DNA of 64,000 nt, from the NCBI GenBank assembly GCA_017538365.1, contig JAFYIZ010000047.1:142800-206799 (forward strand), written 5' to 3'. The notes below the pieces were generated by a model, which did not search any database, was not told where the DNA came from, and saw only the letters and a list, made by a program, of their open reading frames with translations. Below are positions 1,492 to 56,216 of the stretch, one piece after another (within the stretch, counting starts at the first letter, position 1; each line of letters opens with the position of its first letter). The stretch is from a bacterium (lineage in GTDB: Bacteria; UBP6; UBA1177). Made by a program: the position numbers and the translations under genes.

Positions 1492-2711
1492 ATAGAATCT
1501 ACAAAATTCTCTGCACATTATTTTGTGCATTTATTCTTTTTTCCTGCATGTCGCACGGAAATGCGGTTGTAGTAGACAATGATTCGGTCGATACGACATC
1601 CGAAATTTCCGATGTTTCTGATTCTGCAACAGATGAAGATTACACGGAAGATGAGGATTCTGCCGAAAATAGCGATGACAGTGAAAAAAAAGATATTTTA
1701 ACTGACGAAGATGTTGATTTTGTTGAAGATTCAGATACTGCAGAAACTGATGAAGACACTGATTCTGATGACGATTTTGATGTTTCTACAGATGAAGATA
1801 ACGATTCAACCGAAGAACCTGACGTTGTTCCGGATGAAGAAGTCGAAGATACAGAACCTTACGACGGCGATTCAATTCAAATCAGAATTGTTGCGGGAAA
1901 CATCTCAAGTAGAAAGGAAAATGTCTGTTCACAATGTTACGATCCGGGGCACGGAATACGGATTTTTCAGGCGCTAAAGCCTGATATCGCTCTTGTTCAG
2001 GAGATGAATTACAAAAACAATTCGACAAGCGACTACAAATCGTTTGCACAGCAGATTGTCGGAACAAACTACTATGCAGTTGACAGCGCGGATTATCAGA
2101 TTCCGAACGGAGTAGTGAGCAGATATCCGATAACTTCGCACGGTTACTGGAAGGATCCGAACATCAGTAACCGTGCTTTAATGTGGGCTGTCGTCGATAT
2201 TCCGGGAAACACAGATATTTTTGCAATCAGTGTCCATCTGCACACAAGTCCGGACAGTGATCAGGTCAAAGCGGCGCAGGTCATCGTTGATGAAATTGCA
2301 AAGGTCAAAGCAAATAATCCGGGAAAATATTACTATGTCGTAGGCGGCGATTTCAACGGAACTTCGGCGGTTTCTTCAAACGGATTCGGCAAAAACAACA
2401 CTTTTTATGTTGACGGACCTCATCCGGTTGACGAAAAAGGTGATGAAGAGACTAATGCTGGCAGAAAGGAGCAGTACGATTTCGTTTTAGCTGACTATCC
2501 GCTGCATGGATTTCAGGTTCCTACAGTTTATTATTCCTCAAAAGATTCAACAAAAACAAAAAGTTACGCAAACGGACTCGTTTTTGATACTCGTGTTTAC
2601 ACACAGAGTGTGCTTGATGAGTATTTTTCTCCGGCTCAGACAAGCGATTCAAAAGCTGATGAGATGCAGCACATGGCAGTCGTAAAAGATTTTTTGATAG
2701 AACTTAAATGA
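1485..2711 (+). CDS. Lipoprotein with acidic linker and endonuclease/exonuclease/phosphatase domain
   Basis: 408 residues. A signal peptide ends in a lipobox (LFSC, Cys about residue 21), so the protein should be lipid-anchored outside the inner membrane. Residues about 30-130 are a low-complexity Asp/Glu/Ser/Thr linker. From about 132 there is an EEP (exonuclease-endonuclease-phosphatase) fold: RIVAGNISS at the first strand, ALVQEM with the metal-binding Glu, SVHLHTS, GGDFNG with the catalytic Asp/Asn, YDFVLAD, and a late MQHMAVV with the probable catalytic His. Family members cleave DNA, RNA or phosphodiesters with Mg2+; an extracellular nuclease or phosphodiesterase is most likely. It starts 7 bases inside the preceding gene and shares ATGA with birA. 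Substrate is unknown. Confidence 0.85.
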   Translation: MVNRIYKILCTLFCAFILFSCMSHGNAVVVDNDSVDTTSEISDVSDSATDEDYTEDEDSAENSDDSEKKDILTDEDVDFVEDSDTAETDEDTDSDDDFDVSTDEDNDSTEEPDVVPDEEVEDTEPYDGDSIQIRIVAGNISSRKENVCSQCYDPGHGIRIFQALKPDIALVQEMNYKNNSTSDYKSFAQQIVGTNYYAVDSADYQIPNGVVSRYPITSHGYWKDPNISNRALMWAVVDIPGNTDIFAISVHLHTSPDSDQVKAAQVIVDEIAKVKANNPGKYYYVVGGDFNGTSAVSSNGFGKNNTFYVDGPHPVDEKGDEETNAGRKEQYDFVLADYPLHGFQVPTVYYSSKDSTKTKSYANGLVFDTRVYTQSVLDEYFSPAQTSDSKADEMQHMAVVKDFLIELK

Positions 2712-3460
2712 AAGAAGAAATTCTCTCCGCAAACAGATTTGAAAAAATCTACCGCTTCGGCGAAGTTACTTCAACGATGGATGTGTGTGAAGATTTGATA
2801 AAATCAGGCGTTTGCAGGGGAATAGCCGTTGCAGAGTCGCAAACTTCAGGGCGCGGCAGAAATGCGAAAAAGTGGAGCTCAAAAGCAAACGGGAACATAT
2901 ATCTATCTTTTTTTGACGAACTCAATGTCGGTTCCATCCCGCAGAGATGCGCCGTCGCTGCTTATTCGGCAGTTTCGCAGTTCGTGAAAAAAGCTGAAGT
3001 TGTGCGGATAAAGTGGCCTAACGATATACTCATCGGTATGAAAAAAGTTTCCGGAATTATTGCTAAAATTTTGGATTTCGGCGGAAAAAGGTTTTATATC
3101 TGCGGAATCGGAATCAATGTTTTTATGCCGCATGAACCGGAGATGAATTTTGTATGGGAACCGGCTGCACTCAACGATTATGCGGAAACGACGACGGAAG
3201 AAGTTTTGAAGGCGCTCGTTGAAAATATTGATCGCGCATTTTCTTCTGAAGTATCTGAAATTATTGGTATTTACAAACGGAATATAAACTGGATGATCAG
3301 AAAAAACATAGTGTTTTCACAAGATTTGATAAGAAAAGAAAACGGCAGGATCGCCGGATTTTCCGATGATTTTTCGGTGATAAAAATTGAGACGGATGAC
3401 GGCTTGAATGAGCTTTCGGCGCTTTCCATTCTTTCTTTGGACTGCAGGTGTGAGAAATGA
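2708..3460 (+). CDS. birA: Biotin--[acetyl-CoA-carboxylase] ligase
   Basis: 250 residues. It attaches biotin, via biotinyl-AMP, to the carrier lysine of biotin-dependent carboxylases in the cytoplasm. Visible motifs are GRGR (residues 48-51) with Trp56 in the adenylate-binding loop, KWPNDI (102-107), a Lys in the following KKVSG segment, and GIGINV. It lacks the N-terminal winged-helix DNA-binding domain of E. coli BirA, so it is a ligase only, not a repressor. The start shares ATGA with the upstream lipoprotein stop, and its own stop shares ATGA with the first HD-GYP gene, so the three are probably translationally coupled. Confidence 0.93.
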   Translation: MKEEILSANRFEKIYRFGEVTSTMDVCEDLIKSGVCRGIAVAESQTSGRGRNAKKWSSKANGNIYLSFFDELNVGSIPQRCAVAAYSAVSQFVKKAEVVRIKWPNDILIGMKKVSGIIAKILDFGGKRFYICGIGINVFMPHEPEMNFVWEPAALNDYAETTTEEVLKALVENIDRAFSSEVSEIIGIYKRNINWMIRKNIVFSQDLIRKENGRIAGFSDDFSVIKIETDDGLNELSALSILSLDCRCEK

Positions 3461-5580
3461 ACGAACAAAACAGCTCTGAAAAAGTCAAAAACAACCGTTT
3501 CGGAAATATTTTGCTGATCACGGTTCTTTCCCTCATTCTGAACATCATTCTTTCCAAACTGGCGCTTTACTTCAAAATGCCGCTCTATCTGGATACGGTC
3601 GGAACGATTCTGGCCGCAATGCTGGGTGGTAATCTTTCAGCCGTTGCAGTCGGTTTTTTCGTTAATGTGATAAACGGTCTGACGGATGTTTCTACGGTTT
3701 ATTACGGTATAATTAACATTCTTATCGCAGTGTTTGCCGTTATTTTGCACAAGAGGGGGGCTTTCGACCGCATCGGCGGGATTGTTGCTGCGATAGTTGT
3801 TTTTTCAATTATCGGCGGAGGATTAGGGTCGCTGATTACATATTTTTTGAACGGTTTTGATTTCGGCGATGTGGTTTCTGCTCCGTTAGTTGTTGCGATA
3901 TACGAAAGATTCGGTCTTTCCAAGTTCCTTTCCCAGCTTTTGGCCGATATTTCGGTCGATATCTTTGATAAAACGGTGGCTGTTGCGCTTTCCGTGATAA
4001 TTTACCGCCTGATTCCAGGTTCATATAAAGGAGAACAGAGGTCAATCTTTGTTCTCTCTCCTGATTCTGCCGGTTCTGAAGAACATCGGCACAAATATTC
4101 CATAAAGCGTTCGCTTATAAGAAAGGTCGTTGTAATGGTCATAATCGCCGAAATACTTCTCGGAACTCTTGCGAGCATCACCGGTTTCATTCTTTACAGA
4201 CAGGCGGCTTTAAGCAAGTTTACCGATATCGCGGACGGTGTTGCCAAAGCGGCTGCGGTTCTCATTGATGCGGAAAGGACTGACGAATTTCTTGAAAAGG
4301 GGAGAGCCGCTGAAGGTTACAATGAAATCGAGAAAAATCTTTACAAAATAAAGGAAAGTTTTCCTCAGACGACCTATCTTTATGTCTACAAGATTCTTGA
4401 AGACGGCTGTCATGTCGTTTTTGATCTCGATTCGGAAGGAGGAGTTGAAGCAAGCCAGCCGGGTGATATAGTTGAGTTCGATCCGACTTTTGTTCCATAT
4501 CTGCCGAAACTTTTCAAGGGAGAGGAGATCGAACCGATCATTTCCGATGACCAGTTCGGCAAACTTCTCACTGTTTACAAGCCGCTTAAAGGTTCGACTT
4601 ATGTTGCGGCCGATATCGCGATAGGCGAGATCGTGGCTGATGAGGCAAAATTCGTGATCAAACTGCTTTCGATGTTTTTCGCGCTTTCAGTTATCATCAT
4701 GAGCATCGTACTGGAATTGGTAAACCGCGGCATCGTATATCCGGTAAACCGCATGGCGTCGGCTTCGATGAGTTTCGCCTACAAGTTTGATCGGGACGGG
4801 GAATCGGGTCTCAGATTCATGGAGTCGCTGAAAATACACACTTTTGATGAGATAGAGTATCTTTACAAATCTCTTATGAAAATGTGCCGCGATCTCTTGA
4901 ATTACATCAAACAGCTAAGTGTTCAGAACAAGCGTATCACAAGAATGCAGGACGAAATTATCATCAACTTCGCGGAAATGGTCGAAGCGCGTGACAACAG
5001 CACAGGCAACCACATCAAGAAAACGGCGTTTTACGTCGAAGCTATAGCTAAAGAACTTCAGAAAAACGGAAAGTTTACCGATATTCTGACTGATGAATAC
5101 ATTGCCAAGCTCAAACGCTCGGCTCCGCTTCACGACATCGGAAAAATCGCAGTTTCCGATTCAATTCTGAACAAACCGGGGAAACTGACGCCTGAGGAGT
5201 TCGCGATTATGAAAGGTCATACGACCGAAGGGGAGAAAATACTTAAGAAAATAGAGGCTAACGCAAGTGATTCGATGGATGACGACTACCTGAAAGAGTC
5301 AATAGAAATGGCGTTTTACCACCATGAAAAGTGGGACGGAACAGGTTATCCGAACGGTCTGAAAGGCGATGATATTCCTCTTTCAGCGCGGATCATGGCT
5401 GTTGCCGATGTTTTTGATGCTCTTATTGCGGAACGGGTGTACAAAACATCGCTGCCTTATGACAAGGCGATGGAAATAATTCTCGAAGGAGCCGGAAAGG
5501 CTTTCGATCCGGTTGTCGTCGAGGCTTTTTCACACATTGCGAAAGAGCTTTATGACGAGCGCACTATACTGAAAAAATAA
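3457..5580 (+). CDS. Membrane receptor: ECF S-component-like N-terminus, periplasmic sensor, HD-GYP phosphodiesterase
   Basis: 707 residues. Residues about 12-190 form a six-helix membrane domain with the look of an ECF-type vitamin transporter S component (a Leu-Asp-Thr-Val-Gly segment followed by GGNLSAVAVGFFVN). A transmembrane helix near 225-245 and another near 400-420 flank an extracytoplasmic region of about 150 residues with a Cache-like pattern. The C-terminal HD-GYP domain is complete: an upstream His in TGNHIKK, the His559-Asp560 pair in HDIGK, HHE at 622-624, then DGTGYP and RIMAVADVFDAL. HD-GYP enzymes hydrolyse cyclic di-GMP, so this should couple an outside or membrane ligand to c-di-GMP level. 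It is coupled to birA by ATGA and followed 21 bases on by a paralogue. Confidence 0.88.
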   Translation: MNEQNSSEKVKNNRFGNILLITVLSLILNIILSKLALYFKMPLYLDTVGTILAAMLGGNLSAVAVGFFVNVINGLTDVSTVYYGIINILIAVFAVILHKRGAFDRIGGIVAAIVVFSIIGGGLGSLITYFLNGFDFGDVVSAPLVVAIYERFGLSKFLSQLLADISVDIFDKTVAVALSVIIYRLIPGSYKGEQRSIFVLSPDSAGSEEHRHKYSIKRSLIRKVVVMVIIAEILLGTLASITGFILYRQAALSKFTDIADGVAKAAAVLIDAERTDEFLEKGRAAEGYNEIEKNLYKIKESFPQTTYLYVYKILEDGCHVVFDLDSEGGVEASQPGDIVEFDPTFVPYLPKLFKGEEIEPIISDDQFGKLLTVYKPLKGSTYVAADIAIGEIVADEAKFVIKLLSMFFALSVIIMSIVLELVNRGIVYPVNRMASASMSFAYKFDRDGESGLRFMESLKIHTFDEIEYLYKSLMKMCRDLLNYIKQLSVQNKRITRMQDEIIINFAEMVEARDNSTGNHIKKTAFYVEAIAKELQKNGKFTDILTDEYIAKLKRSAPLHDIGKIAVSDSILNKPGKLTPEEFAIMKGHTTEGEKILKKIEANASDSMDDDYLKESIEMAFYHHEKWDGTGYPNGLKGDDIPLSARIMAVADVFDALIAERVYKTSLPYDKAMEIILEGAGKAFDPVVVEAFSHIAKELYDERTILKK

Positions 5581-5601
5581 TAAGAATATACGGGGTACAG
5601 T

Positions 5602-7758
5602 ATGAAAAACGGTAGATCGGCAAAATGGATCGGTTTCGGACAAGCCGTCCTGTTTGTTTTTGCGGCGCTTCTGCTCAATATTATTCCTTCAAAGACCGCT
5701 CTTGCTTTAAATCTGCCGCTCTTCCTCGATTCGATAGGGACTATTTTTGCGGCGATGCTGGGAGGAAACCTTCCTGCCGTAATCGTCGGTTTCTGCGTTA
5801 ATGCAATCAACGGAATTTCGGATATAACAACGCTTTACTACGGTATAATCAGCATTCTTATCGGTGTTGCGGCGGCACTTTTCCAGCGCAACGGCTTTTT
5901 CAAGACTCCGGGTAAAATAGTTGTAACAATCATCACTTTTTCGTTTTTGGGCGGCGGTCTCGGCTCGGTTCTTACATATTTCCTTTTCGGCTACGATTTC
6001 GGTGAAGGAATCTCCGCTCCGTTCGCTCTTGCGGTATATGAACACCTCGGTTTTTCCAAGTTTTTCGCGCAGCTTACCGCCGATATAATTCTGGATGTTT
6101 TCGACAAAACGATCGTTGTTATTGCGGCTGTTGCGCTTCAGCGCGTTGTTCCGCAGCAGCTGAAAGACAGAACAGGCAAACTTTTTCTTTTCAACCAGGA
6201 TCCGGTCAGGTCTGACGAGGAAAAGTTGTTCGAGGGAAAATTAGTCAAGCGCTCACTTATAAGAAAAGTCGTTGTCATGGTAATTGTTGCAGAAATTCTT
6301 TTGGGAGCTCTTGCCAGCACTACCGGATATATCCTTTACAGTCAGGCTGCAGTCAACGAATACATCGATATTACAAAGGGCGTTTCGAAAGCGACATCTG
6401 TTGTTGTCGACGGCGACAGGATCGACGAATTTTTAGAAAAGGGACGTGAGGCTGAAGGTTACGCCGATATAGAAAAACGTCTTTACAGAATCAAGGAGAC
6501 ATTCCCGCATGTCATGTATCTTTACATTTACCGCATTATGGAAGACGGTTCGCACGTCATTTTTGACCTCGAATCCGAAGATATTGACGATGTAAAGGCG
6601 GTAAAGGCTGATCAGCCTGGCGATGTCGTTGATTTTGACGAGACTTTTGCAGATGTGAAAGAAAATCTGATCCGCGGCGAAAAAGTTGAACCTAGAATTT
6701 CGGATGATGAATTCGGCTGGCTGCTTACAAGCTATGAACCGCTTCTCAATTCGGAGGGAAAGCCTGTCGCACAGATCGGAGTCGATTTGTACATGGGTGA
6801 TGTAAACGGCGAACAGGCGACATTCTTTATCAAACTTCTTTCGATGTTTTTCGGGCTTTCGATAATCATCATGAGTGTTGTTCTCGAGTTCGTAAACCGC
6901 GGCATCGTCTATCCGGTGAACAGAATGGCGGCAGCATCGATACATTTCGCCTACAATCTGGAACAAGGTGTCGAGAGCGGCAACAACTTAAAGGCGATCG
7001 AAGACTTGAAAATACACACATTCGACGAAATTGAATATCTTTACAGAGCAATCACGAAAATGGGAGGAGACTCACTGCGCTACATTGATGAACTCAACAA
7101 GCAGACCGAGCGAATCACCAATATGCAGGAAGAGATTATCGTCAATTTCGCTGAAATGGTTGAAGCGCGCGACATGAGCACAGGCAACCACGTCAAAAAG
7201 ACGGCGTTCTACGTCGAGGCGATCGCAAAGGAACTCCAGAAGGAAGGCAAGTTCAAAGATATTCTAACAGATTCCTACATCAAGGTTCTGAAACGCTCGG
7301 CACCGCTTCACGATATAGGAAAAATCGCGATTTCAGACCTCATTCTGAATAAGCCTGGAAGATTCACCGAAGACGAATTCAAAATCATGCAGAGCCACAC
7401 GACCGAAGGCAAAAACATCCTGACCAAGATCGAAACTAATGCAAGCGATATGGACGAAGGATACCTGAAAGAATCGATTGAAATGGCGCAGTATCACCAT
7501 GAAAAATGGGACGGAACCGGTTATCCGTGCGGAGTCAAAGGGGATGAAATTCCGATTTCGGCACGAATCATGGCTGTTGCCGATGTTTTCGACGCACTTG
7601 TCGCGGAAAGGGTCTACAAGGCAGCATTCCCGTACGAAAAGGCGATGGAAATAATCACCGGAGGAGCAGGAAAGGCTTTTGATCCCGATGTAGTCGAAGC
7701 ATTCACGCACATTTCAAAAGAGCTTTACGACAAGCGCACCAGACTCGAGAAAAAATAA
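5602..7758 (+). CDS. Second, tandem paralogue of the ECF-like/HD-GYP receptor
   Basis: 718 residues with the same order of parts as the preceding gene: S-component-like membrane domain (about residues 10-190), helix, Cache-like outer region, helix, HD-GYP. The output domain is nearly the same word for word, including HDIGKIAISD, HHEKWDGTGYP and RIMAVADVFDAL, and all HD-GYP metal ligands are kept. The outer sensor region differs most and carries about 11 extra residues around IDDVKAVKADQPGD. This is a tandem gene duplication in which output is conserved while the sensing part diverges, so the two probably respond to different ligands or levels. It ends the operon; an inverted repeat follows before the convergent pepF. 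Confidence 0.88.
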   Translation: MKNGRSAKWIGFGQAVLFVFAALLLNIIPSKTALALNLPLFLDSIGTIFAAMLGGNLPAVIVGFCVNAINGISDITTLYYGIISILIGVAAALFQRNGFFKTPGKIVVTIITFSFLGGGLGSVLTYFLFGYDFGEGISAPFALAVYEHLGFSKFFAQLTADIILDVFDKTIVVIAAVALQRVVPQQLKDRTGKLFLFNQDPVRSDEEKLFEGKLVKRSLIRKVVVMVIVAEILLGALASTTGYILYSQAAVNEYIDITKGVSKATSVVVDGDRIDEFLEKGREAEGYADIEKRLYRIKETFPHVMYLYIYRIMEDGSHVIFDLESEDIDDVKAVKADQPGDVVDFDETFADVKENLIRGEKVEPRISDDEFGWLLTSYEPLLNSEGKPVAQIGVDLYMGDVNGEQATFFIKLLSMFFGLSIIIMSVVLEFVNRGIVYPVNRMAAASIHFAYNLEQGVESGNNLKAIEDLKIHTFDEIEYLYRAITKMGGDSLRYIDELNKQTERITNMQEEIIVNFAEMVEARDMSTGNHVKKTAFYVEAIAKELQKEGKFKDILTDSYIKVLKRSAPLHDIGKIAISDLILNKPGRFTEDEFKIMQSHTTEGKNILTKIETNASDMDEGYLKESIEMAQYHHEKWDGTGYPCGVKGDEIPISARIMAVADVFDALVAERVYKAAFPYEKAMEIITGGAGKAFDPDVVEAFTHISKELYDKRTRLEKK

Positions 7759-30594: not shown

Positions 30595-32775
30595 ATGAAA
30601 GAAAAAATCACCGCTTTTTTCTTCGCGTTTCTTTTTTTCATATTGTACGTTCTTGTTGCAACGGATTTGCATGTTTTTACTTATTTTACTTCTTTCTGGC
30701 CTAATTTGCATATCTGCATGGCGGTCACATTTGTTGTTTTCTTTGCAATATATCGAATAAAACCGGATATTCTGGCAAAAACCGGTGAAATTGTCGTAAA
30801 ATATTCCATATATGTTCTTCCTGTTGTGATGTTTCTCGCTACGCTTGCAGTAAACCGGATATTTATTGTTAGTGAAATGCCGGATGACGGAGCTCATTAT
30901 GTCTGGTTGGCAAAACTTATCGCGAATGGTAAATTCTATCTCCCTTTACCTGATTTTGCAGAGCATTATTCTGCTCTTTTTATGTTCATGCACAACGACA
31001 AATATACCTCGATTTTTCTGCCGGGGTATAGTCTGGCTCTTGTTCCTTTCGTTAAATTCGGGTTGGAATATATGTTTAATCCGATGGTTGCAGGAATAAA
31101 CACCTTTTTGGTAGGAATTCACGCCGAAAAACTGAAAAACAGACATGCGGCATTGATTGCAATGCTTATGTTTTCCGCTGCTCCGATCCATATCATGCAC
31201 GGTGCTCTCTATTTTTCTCATCACTTCGGGCTCATGCTTGTTTTGGCATCGTCTTATTTGTTGATTCATAAGTCTGAAAAATCATTAAATTTCTTATTTG
31301 CCGGAGCAATTCTTTCATATTCACTGATGATGCGTCCTCAAAATGCATTGTATGTTTATGCAGCACTGGCGTTTTTTATTCTCTCAAGAGACAAGAGCGT
31401 GAAAAAATTGGCACTTTTTACTGTTCCGTTTGTTGCAATGGGACTGATTTTAATGGCTTATAACCGGTTTTTTACAGGAGATCCGTTCATTTTCACGCAG
31501 GATATCCTTTTCAATACCATGGATCTTAAAGAATTCTGTCACAGGCCTGGTTTGGGAAAAGGATGCAACTTAGTGGCTCCTCTGAGAAGCTGGACTCCGT
31601 TGGAAGGAACTACGATCCCGTTTTTGGCTCATATTTCGTTTCTCAGAATCAATGGTTTCATTCACTGGATAACATTTCATCCTTTAATGCTCTTGTTTAT
31701 ATTTCCTGCAATAATATCAAAACCTTACAAATATTTTCCATACTATTTTACTCCGCTTTGCGCTTTGTTTTTCTATTTTTGGTTTTTTCTCGAAGGAAAC
31801 TATTTCGGACCGCGTTATCTGATGGAGTCCGGAGCTATGATTCTGATTTTAGCCGCCTGCGGTTTTGTGGAAACTTATAACAAATTGCTCGATAAAAACA
31901 GCGGTTTGTCCAGATTTGCGGCTTTGTCGATGCACGGTTTTGTTTTAGGGGCGCTGATTTTTTTCATGTTTTACAGTATACCTCTTTTCCCGAAAAGACT
32001 TCCAGGACTATACAATCCGGCTTCGATAGAGAGGATTATAGAAGAAAAAAATATAAAAAACTCAATAGTTTTGGTTCCTTTCCATCTGCTGTTTCATTTT
32101 GAATCAATTTTAAGACTCCAGAAGAATCCACCTTTTGACGAACACGGTAATTTGATTCTCTATTCGAGGGGAGAGAAATCTGACACGAATCTTAGAAAAT
32201 ATTATTCTGAAAAAGATTTTGAAGCGATATGGAAAATGGAAATAGAAAAAGAGGATATGTTTGGGGATCCTCTTGCCAATAGAATTTTCCGTGCCGAAAA
32301 AATTTCTTTTCTTGAAGATGACGGCATTTATTATGCCAATTTCGGATATAAAATACTTCCGAATGAAGGGCAGCCTCAGATGGTTTATATGCTGGACAAT
32401 TCCTACAACAAAATTCTGGAAGATATTTTAGGTTCGTATATTTCCGATAATTTCAAGTTTGACGAACAAGGTCTTTTTATCATTTTCGGCGAAAATACGG
32501 GGAAAAACTATTACGGATTCGAACAGTCGGTAAAACGTGAAGGAATTTACGATATTAAAATCACAATGATTCCGACTAAATGCACTCCGAATTTTTCTGT
32601 GGAAATAAACGGAAAAAAATCAGTGACTTATGCTCACGAAAATACCGAAAACGACGGGTTGCCGTATGTTCTTGAATTTGACGGAACAATGCAAAGCGGC
32701 AGAAACAAACTGAAAATCGTTCCCGAAGCCAATGGTTGTCTTATACTTTCTGATATGGTTTTGCAAAAAAGATAA
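30595..32775 (+). CDS. Large integral membrane protein, GT-C glycosyltransferase-like, with soluble C-terminal domain
   Basis: 726 residues. Residues about 1-480 contain roughly 11-12 transmembrane helices. After the third helix lies EMPDDGAHYVWLAKLI, an acidic pair in the first outer loop such as GT-C enzymes (PMT/ArnT type) use for catalysis. The later PLRSWTP and FGPRYLMESGA segments also resemble this class, the latter being a common GT-C wording. The last 200 residues are soluble, beta-rich and end in a possible carbohydrate-binding-like sandwich. It likely transfers a sugar from a polyprenyl phosphate donor on the periplasmic side. No sugar-related neighbours help. Base composition is more AT-rich than in adjoining genes. 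Confidence 0.7.
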   Translation: MKEKITAFFFAFLFFILYVLVATDLHVFTYFTSFWPNLHICMAVTFVVFFAIYRIKPDILAKTGEIVVKYSIYVLPVVMFLATLAVNRIFIVSEMPDDGAHYVWLAKLIANGKFYLPLPDFAEHYSALFMFMHNDKYTSIFLPGYSLALVPFVKFGLEYMFNPMVAGINTFLVGIHAEKLKNRHAALIAMLMFSAAPIHIMHGALYFSHHFGLMLVLASSYLLIHKSEKSLNFLFAGAILSYSLMMRPQNALYVYAALAFFILSRDKSVKKLALFTVPFVAMGLILMAYNRFFTGDPFIFTQDILFNTMDLKEFCHRPGLGKGCNLVAPLRSWTPLEGTTIPFLAHISFLRINGFIHWITFHPLMLLFIFPAIISKPYKYFPYYFTPLCALFFYFWFFLEGNYFGPRYLMESGAMILILAACGFVETYNKLLDKNSGLSRFAALSMHGFVLGALIFFMFYSIPLFPKRLPGLYNPASIERIIEEKNIKNSIVLVPFHLLFHFESILRLQKNPPFDEHGNLILYSRGEKSDTNLRKYYSEKDFEAIWKMEIEKEDMFGDPLANRIFRAEKISFLEDDGIYYANFGYKILPNEGQPQMVYMLDNSYNKILEDILGSYISDNFKFDEQGLFIIFGENTGKNYYGFEQSVKREGIYDIKITMIPTKCTPNFSVEINGKKSVTYAHENTENDGLPYVLEFDGTMQSGRNKLKIVPEANGCLILSDMVLQKR

Positions 32776-54506: not shown

Positions 54507-56216
54507 ATGAAAAAAAGCTGTTTTTTTGTTTTTCTGGCGTTTTTATTCGTTGTTTCGTGTTCTAACGGTGATGATCCGCTGATTCCATGTATAACTGTCG
54601 CAGACTGTCCGGACACTTCATATTCATGTTTTGACGGTTTTTGTGTTCATGCCGGTTCGTTAGTTGATCCAACTGATTCAGACAACGACAATTCTTCCGA
54701 TAACACAGTTCCTGATGATGATCAGAATGATGACGAAAATTCTTCAGACGGAAACAATAGTAATAACGATGGGGATTCGGAACGTCCAGATTCTGTAAAC
54801 GATAACGAAAATTCGGAGTCGTCTTCTGATAAAGACAATGATGAAACTTCCGATTCTGACGGTACTGAAGGCGATGACAGCTCAGAAACTTCAGATGTCG
54901 ACGATATTGAAGAAAATGACGGCGAAACGACAGACGGAAATAACGGCGAAAGCGGTGACAACGAATCTGATCCTTCATCGAATGACGAGGAAAATTCAGG
55001 TGATGAAGATGCTGATTCCGATTCCAATGATTCTGAAAATTCCGATGAGGATGTAGACATCGAAGAAAATCCGGTAGGGCAGGTTACAAACTGCGATACT
55101 GAAGCTGATTGCGCTTCAAATATCAACAACAAACGCTGCGACACCACTTTGAATAAATGTGTGATTTGTGTAAGTGACAGCGATTGTGATCCTGCTTTAG
55201 GACAGAAATGTGACCTTTCTACGCACGAATGTGTGTCAAATGCAACATGCGCTGCGGCGATAGAAAGGCTTCCTTACGCTGGAGTTTACGACTGGGAAGA
55301 CGGCACGACGCAGGGATTTTCCACGAATGCTTACTGGAATCTTGTAAACGATTCCATTCTTTCAAATGGAGCATATTCTTTCGGACAGTATTCCGGATAT
55401 ACTGACAATATGGATTATACTTCAGTTCTTCAGCCTGTTGATCTCTCCAAATGCTCCGGATGCGTGGTCAATGTTCTTTATTATGCAAAAGGAACGATCC
55501 CAAAGTCGGAAAACGGATATGATTTTATTCATCCGACATGCAACGGTGAGGGAAAAACGACAGCAAGAAATTCAACTGTTTCTATTCAGTCTCTGACACC
55601 ACAATCGCCATGGGAAATGGCGGAAGCTTATTATCAAAAGGTCAACAGCTATTCAACTGTCGCTTGGACGACATCGGAATGGCAACTTCCCGCATCTTGC
55701 AAAACGGATAAATTTGTTTTTGGTCTGAGATTCAGTAGTAACGGTAGCATAAGTTATGCAACCAATCACAGTTATCTCGGTCTTGTCGTTGACGATCTCA
55801 CGATTGCTTCAGCAGCTACCGGCTATGTACCAAACGGCGAATTTGAATCGGCAGCTAACGGCTATATCAAAGGCTGGGTTTGTGACCTTGACAATATAGA
55901 TAAAAATATTTTGGTTAAAGTCGAATACTACAAAAATAACGAATCCACTGCTTCTGCAACGCGCTGGGTTTATGCGAATATCGATATTCCCTCCAGCTCG
56001 GATTCTCCGCTTGCTACACAGTGCAACGGAACATACAACCATGGTTTCGGAGTGCCGTTTGACAGCGATCTTTACGAACTTTTGGGTGTAGGAACTCACA
56101 GTGCGGCTGTTTTTGCGGTTGATATTCCGTCAGCCGAGAATAATTGTGCCGGAACTTATAAAGAATTAGGTAAAAAAGAGTTCCAGATAACCAATTCAGA
56201 TCCTAAACAACAATAA
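54507..56216 (+). CDS. Lipoprotein with long Asp/Ser/Asn/Glu linker, Cys-rich module and C-terminal domain
   Basis: 569 residues. Lipobox VVSC (Cys about residue 18). A first Cys cluster (IPCITVADCPDTSYSCFDGFC, about 28-48) is followed by an extremely low-complexity linker of about 130 residues made of Asp, Ser, Asn, Glu and Gly (about 55-188). A second Cys-rich module (CDTEADC, KRCDTTLNKCVICVSDSDC, CDLSTHEC, about 195-245) has the spacing of small disulfide domains common in deltaproteobacterial surface proteins. The C-terminal 320 residues hold a beta-rich, MAM/jelly-roll-like portion (WEDGTTQGF at its start) and a final domain. No enzyme motif is recognised. Likely surface-exposed; function unknown. 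Confidence 0.8.
   Translation: MKKSCFFVFLAFLFVVSCSNGDDPLIPCITVADCPDTSYSCFDGFCVHAGSLVDPTDSDNDNSSDNTVPDDDQNDDENSSDGNNSNNDGDSERPDSVNDNENSESSSDKDNDETSDSDGTEGDDSSETSDVDDIEENDGETTDGNNGESGDNESDPSSNDEENSGDEDADSDSNDSENSDEDVDIEENPVGQVTNCDTEADCASNINNKRCDTTLNKCVICVSDSDCDPALGQKCDLSTHECVSNATCAAAIERLPYAGVYDWEDGTTQGFSTNAYWNLVNDSILSNGAYSFGQYSGYTDNMDYTSVLQPVDLSKCSGCVVNVLYYAKGTIPKSENGYDFIHPTCNGEGKTTARNSTVSIQSLTPQSPWEMAEAYYQKVNSYSTVAWTTSEWQLPASCKTDKFVFGLRFSSNGSISYATNHSYLGLVVDDLTIASAATGYVPNGEFESAANGYIKGWVCDLDNIDKNILVKVEYYKNNESTASATRWVYANIDIPSSSDSPLATQCNGTYNHGFGVPFDSDLYELLGVGTHSAAVFAVDIPSAENNCAGTYKELGKKEFQITNSDPKQQ

Follow-up and report, generated by a model that had tools for sequence, protein, structure and literature searches.

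The window (the whole stretch of DNA that was analysed, 64,000 nucleotides) comes from a draft genome of 2.3 Mb; the relatives of this genome, MAGs from the rumen and from other ruminant guts, are labelled UBP6. Three neighbouring genes on the same strand make up the locus: birA, joined to the first of two receptor genes by an ATGA overlap, and a second receptor gene that follows the first after 21 nt. Their positions in the window and those of the encoded domains are listed here with the evidence for each.

2708..3460, + strand: birA, biotin--protein ligase without the repressor HTH domain, 250 aa (TIGR00121, E 9.8e-31, above cut-off)
3457..5580, + strand: receptor gene 1, S domain, Cache and HD-GYP, 707 aa
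3490..4056, + strand: gene 1, S-component-type membrane domain, six helices, aa ~12-200 (NF045596; AlphaFold; Foldseek to RibU/ThiT)
4102..4191, + strand: gene 1, TM7, leading into the outer domain (hydropathy; long helix in the model)
4192..4644, + strand: gene 1, outer single Cache-type sensor, aa ~246-396 (AlphaFold; Foldseek; Pfam in some relatives)
4645..4926, + strand: gene 1, TM8 and HAMP-like linker (hydropathy; HAMP Pfam matches in 5 of 39 relatives)
4927..5577, + strand: gene 1, HD-GYP domain with HDIGK and HHEKWDGTGYP (Pfam HD_5; 4r8z; motif invariance)
5602..7758, + strand: receptor gene 2, tandem paralogue of gene 1, 718 aa (separate supported UBP6 subclade)
5626..6192, + strand: gene 2, S-component-type membrane domain (NF045596, E 7.9e-15; domain alignment)
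6334..6816, + strand: gene 2, outer Cache-type sensor with a 5-residue insertion (alignments)
7105..7755, + strand: gene 2, HD-GYP domain (Pfam HD_5, 3e-32; 79% identity to gene 1)

The open reading frames, the profile searches and the structure models confirm the initial annotation in its description of two adjacent genes with the order S-component-like domain, outer Cache domain and HD-GYP domain, and birA lies directly before gene 1, with the shared ATGA, at the positions claimed. No riboswitch was found in the window with Rfam, and promoter and terminator scans gave results near chance. Elsewhere in the window, two large open reading frames (30595-32772, 726 aa; 54507-56213, 569 aa) have no NCBIfam match at 1e-10.

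Domains of the tandem receptors

The membrane domain matches NF045596, the NCBIfam model of the CD3073 family of putative ECF transporter S components, with an E-value of 4e-17 to 4.9e-17 for gene 1 and of 7.9e-15 for the isolated first ~200 residues of gene 2, and the match is found in all 41 relatives of the S-domain alignment. It spans the full model at 62 bits, against an equivalog cut-off of 180; with PF12822 the score is 15 bits against a cut-off of 30.7, and 18 of the 41 relatives match this second model. The AlphaFold model built from the 41-sequence alignment (pLDDT 88.8, pTM 0.85) has six membrane helices, some of them broken, and its top PDB matches are RibU of S. aureus and T. maritima together with ThiT (Foldseek probability 1.00, TM 0.54-0.62). 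The Foldseek E-values are modest, from 0.07 upward, as is expected for small helical membrane proteins, and since a direct profile search of the domain against PDB sequences gave no match, the evidence for the S fold comes from AlphaFold and Foldseek. A phmmer match of the gene 2 S domain to Crov588 was rejected as an artefact, the target being repetitive and no single stretch of it significant. When the MASE families were considered as an alternative identity, Pfam gave no MASE match in the full proteins, the isolated domains or the 41 relatives. The match to NF045596 and the likeness to RibU and ThiT therefore support, by sequence and by modelled fold, the assignment of this domain to the ECF S-component type that had been proposed from the DNA, and place it unusually near real transporters in sequence.

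Polar residues within the membrane domain are conserved, and several are common to receptors and transporter S components: nine residues (N, D, G, T, two G, N, D-K) are invariant across the Cache receptors, the cyclase and propeller types described below and the transporter S components of ECF operons. This conservation, together with the recurrence of the S module before another outer sensor (a propeller) and before other outputs, argues against a domain that is a mere membrane anchor or dimerisation module and leaves the sensing to the Cache domain. In many receptors a Cache domain by itself suffices as the sensor, and the two paralogues share just 53% identity in their S domains, both of which would fit an anchor; we nevertheless consider this reading rather unlikely, and propose that the S domain may well bind a ligand.

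The outer domain, between TM7 and TM8, is modelled as a single Cache domain (AlphaFold pLDDT 87.4). Its Foldseek matches are Cache domains, and one of the crystal-structure matches, 8py0 (TMt 0.60), is the formate-bound domain of a chemoreceptor from Oscillibacter ruminantium, a likeness to be taken as a lead on the class of the Cache ligand and no more. Pfam support for the assignment is patchy, with dCache_1 or sCache_3_3 in some relatives and dCache_1 in 6 of 39. The Cache fold is assigned to the outside of the membrane, flanked by TM helices, and the helix count gives a consistent topology, in which the N-terminus would be inside, the six helices would bring the chain back to the cytoplasm, TM7 would lead out to the Cache domain and TM8 would lead back.

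The output domain matches Pfam HD_5 in both proteins (E 7.6e-35 in gene 1 and 3e-32 in gene 2) and 4r8z with an E-value of 1.7e-43. The E, H, HD, H, HH and GYP motif residues are invariant in the 41 sequences, and the HHExxDGxGYP motif and the metal ligands are intact. On this basis both HD-GYP domains are predicted to be c-di-GMP phosphodiesterases. Counting against this main reading, HD-GYP domains in general can be inactive or cut other dinucleotides, and 5z7c is a 3'3'-cGAMP enzyme. In the host genome, two proteins with GGDEF and two with PilZ score over cut-off, so that a c-di-GMP circuit exists on which the HD-GYP output could act.

Comparison of the two paralogues gave identities of 53% for the S domain, 54% for the Cache domain, 83% for TM7 and TM8, 57% for the linker and 79% for the HD-GYP domain. 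Both candidate sensing domains have thus diverged, while the transmission helices and the output are kept. The view that the outputs are nearly identical and the outer sensors different has to be amended, since the HD-GYP domains are similar rather than near-identical and divergence is as great between the S domains as between the outer sensors, which do differ. Nor does gene 2 carry a single 11-residue insertion, as was first read: it has an insertion of 5 residues, and a separate deletion of 5 residues lies in gene 1 and its UBP6 orthologues at a site where Fibrobacter relatives keep them, 11 being the net difference in length of the two proteins (707 and 718 aa).

Distribution of the receptors and the birA neighbourhood

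The scan of genome contigs confirmed at least 534 relatives, the best 80 of which were analysed, a set biased to the nearest, mostly rumen, relatives. All of these 80 have the same design with an HD-GYP domain and typically ~710 aa, one being cut by the contig end before the output motif; since the architecture is kept at ~710 aa in nearly all the 80 nearest relatives, it is not a product of chance. The 80 relatives come from UBP6, Fibrobacter, Lachnospiraceae, Oscillospiraceae, Erysipelotrichaceae, Syntrophomonadaceae and Eggerthellaceae, and this kind of receptor is widespread in gut bacteria. In two Fibrobacter receptors of ~628 aa (L106:780-2666 and L119:4932-6815), the Cache domain is replaced by a far smaller outer domain. 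In two draft genomes (G024, locus L020; G017, locus L022) the receptor gene is broken, as a short frame or as two frames, by assembly errors or by decay.

Within the UBP6 phylum, the sensor family is present in all 15 genomes of the genus of the window and in none of the 13 others. The receptors of UBP6 and Fibrobacter group in a single clade with a support of 100, and the best tree nests UBP6 inside Fibrobacter; a single Fibrobacter clade is not rejected (AU p 0.19), so the paraphyly of Fibrobacter relative to UBP6 is not established. Because the UBP6 receptors group with those of Fibrobacter, a horizontal transfer of the gene between the two lineages is well supported by the sequences, and its direction was most likely from Fibrobacter to UBP6, by parsimony only.

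The position of the receptors behind birA had suggested a coupling to biotin, in which biotin or a precursor would be the ligand and the birA operon would couple biotin ligation to c-di-GMP. The ATGA overlap of birA with gene 1 is in agreement with this idea, as is the occurrence of the receptor directly after birA in 13 of the 14 genus genomes with a readable HD-GYP locus. In addition, birA is kept in 14 of the 15 genomes of the genus and neither BioY nor bioB is found over cut-off in any of the 15, so that the genus may depend on outside biotin. Several results speak against the coupling. Among the best 80 relatives, birA stands beside the receptor at all 8 loci of the UBP6 genus and at none of the 72 loci elsewhere (Fibrobacter, Bacillota, Eggerthellaceae); the adjacency is therefore found in more than this one genome, since other members of the genus share it, but is confined to one genus. 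Within the genus, a whole block of aminotransferase, membrane protein, endonuclease-like lipoprotein, birA and receptor genes is collinear across most members, so the adjacency of birA carries no special weight, and in one genome of the same genus (G014) the endonuclease-birA pair has no receptor behind it, the receptor being encoded on a different contig. The 50 best structure matches listed for the S-domain model do not include BioY, neither window protein matches PF02632 (BioY), and the genomic links of the sister transporter genes are to nucleoside and sugar enzymes rather than to biotin. The 107 genes surveyed round the non-UBP6 receptors fall into 101 different families and likewise showed no vitamin linkage. 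The apparent tie to biotin looks accidental, biotin as the ligand seems to us highly improbable, and birA is probably a neighbour outside the receptor system.

Other uses of the S module and the proposed mechanism

The combination of S and Cache domains is not restricted to HD-GYP proteins. A third copy in the same genome (L003:1027-3159, contig G000:C6) has a class III adenylate/guanylate cyclase as output (PF00211, E 6e-30), and counterparts of this cyclase are found in most genomes of the genus. In Bacillota, a CD3073-like S domain precedes a Reg_prop/Y_Y_Y propeller sensor with an HD-GYP domain or a full hybrid histidine kinase (L154-L157, L162), and at 16 Lachnospiraceae-type loci a gene for a propeller hybrid histidine kinase comes shortly after an S-Cache-HD-GYP gene, the two forming a recurrent unit. 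In an Eggerthellaceae locus, a GGDEF diguanylate cyclase gene (L072:7181-8593) overlaps the stop of the HD-GYP receptor, so that two opposing enzymes are neighbours. The CD3073-like family also has stand-alone S genes, some of which belong to ECF operons together with T and ABC genes (L163, L164), and ECF T/ABC genes also lie beside nine others (L181, L182, L200, L212, L214, L216, L220, L224, L226). An inosine-uridine-type nucleoside hydrolase adjoins 20 stand-alone S genes, two of which (L181, L216) also carry ECF genes, and others adjoin PfkB kinases, a ribulose-phosphate epimerase or a niacin-type 3H regulator.

S-Cache-HD-GYP gene with propeller kinase gene: L079, L080, L082, L085, L087, L089, L091, L092, L097, L102, L109, L111, L112, L115-L117
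S gene linked to a nucleoside hydrolase: L181, L183-L185, L187-L193, L195, L198, L199, L216, L222, L223, L227, L230, L231

The nucleoside hydrolase neighbours predict a nucleoside or nucleobase ligand for the CD3073-like S components. For the receptors, the ECF, nucleoside hydrolase and PfkB linkage of the stand-alone relatives weakly favours a nucleoside- or sugar-like ligand, a better guess than biotin and a tentative one, because the S genes nearest to the receptors (L164, L200) have ECF genes and no nucleoside hydrolase. A literature search on 'CD3073' and 'QrtT' found no paper that names the substrate of CD3073.

In unrooted trees of the S domain, the Cache receptors group as a single clade (99) to which the ECF-operon S genes L164 and L200 are nearest, and the propeller receptors fall with the S gene L165 on another branch. 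A single origin of all the fused receptors is disfavoured, not quite rejected (AU p 0.06). Since the trees are unrooted, the direction of change between transporter and receptor can only be inferred. It is conceivable, if speculative, that S components gave rise to signalling receptors on two or more occasions and on separate branches, one leading to the Cache/HD-GYP and Cache/cyclase types and another to the propeller/HD-GYP and propeller/hybrid-kinase types, and that keeping the nucleoside or sugar site of the transporter and adding a second outer sensor made a two-input second-messenger switch.

The absence of an import motor bears directly on the function of the receptor S domain. No EcfT was found with PF02361 in any of the 15 genomes of the genus (the control search gave matches in 10 of 14), and it is absent from 27 of the 28 genomes of the phylum, counts subject to the completeness of draft genomes, several of which are 97-99% complete. 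As the genus has neither EcfT nor BioY, the S domain should sense and not import, and nutrient import by it would be excluded in this genus, subject to the same completeness. This result weighs against a dual-function transceptor, in which the S domain would still dock on an ECF module and both import and sense, an idea that draws on the ECF A and T genes found next to sister S components in the genomes of related Bacillota. The AXXXA motif is also missing from helix 1 of both window proteins and present in 5 of 41 family members, an absence that does not discriminate here, since the transporter S genes L163-L165 likewise lack it in helix 1. We give such a dual function very little credence.

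Taken together, we propose that each gene encodes a transmembrane receptor adjusting the breakdown of c-di-GMP. The six-helix S-component homologue would bind a small nutrient from outside and, as the genus has no EcfT, could not pass it to an import motor; the outer single Cache domain would take another ligand, which may be a small carboxylate. With ligand bound to either domain or to both, TM7, TM8 and the HAMP-like linker would shift, and this movement would switch the HD-GYP domain that hydrolyses c-di-GMP, the phosphodiesterase being in this way under the presumed control of the ligand. Rumen bacteria akin to Fibrobacter were most likely the source from which the genus received the gene, which would then have inserted behind birA and is present as a tandem pair in some species. 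We consider this explanation as a whole, a two-input receptor of Fibrobacter-like origin acting on a c-di-GMP phosphodiesterase, to be likely.

Comparison with known systems

Receptors built on the S-component fold are already known as the 5TMR-LYT family (PF07694: LytS, YpdA, BtsS), in which this fold serves as receptor with varied cytoplasmic outputs, including GGDEF/EAL (PMC11109136). The two proteins could accordingly be members of this family with an HD-GYP output, and the same overall fold by the published analysis (PMC11109136) and weak PF07694 matches in 8 of 41 relatives (best 5.2e-6) are in agreement with this. The NXR motif and the helix H0, however, are defining features of 5TMR-LYT (PMC11109136), and the motif is found between helices 1 and 2 in none of the 41 sequences, while helix 1 starts at about residue 13 and begins a set of six helices only, leaving no room for H0. 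The window proteins have no PF07694 match, compared with matches to the CD3073 S-component model in 41 of 41, so that membership is quite improbable. The receptors described here differ further in the extra outer Cache domain, the two more TM helices and the HD-GYP output, and their S domain is closer in sequence to real S components.

The nearest likeness is to the CD3073 ECF S components (NF045596; PF12822), which share the membrane domain family and the invariant N, D, GT, N and DK residues, and whose two closest stand-alone genes belong to ECF operons and are neighbours of the receptor clade in the S tree; unlike them, the receptors fuse the S domain to a sensor and an enzyme, in a genus with no ECF motor. 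The output domain, with its full motif, resembles the solved HD-GYP phosphodiesterases (4r8z; 4mcw), which have other sensors or none, and the outer domain has the fold of single Cache sensors (8py0), with a sequence so divergent that most Pfam Cache models do not match it. In the literature searched, which covered a minority of subscription papers, no paper has both 'HD-GYP' and 'energy-coupling factor', and a review of c-di-GMP sensing does not mention ECF or S components; the fusion of an ECF-family S domain to Cache and HD-GYP domains was not found in that literature. From these data, c-di-GMP receptors whose domain for nutrient sensing has gone unrecognised are predicted to form a large class in the gut and rumen. 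Partipilo and Slotboom noted that importers and 5TMR receptors share their fold and left the origin of one from the other unresolved, the sequences being too distant (PMC11109136). In contrast, the fused receptors and the S components of ECF operons can still be aligned and placed in one tree, which makes the step from transporter to receptor open to direct testing.
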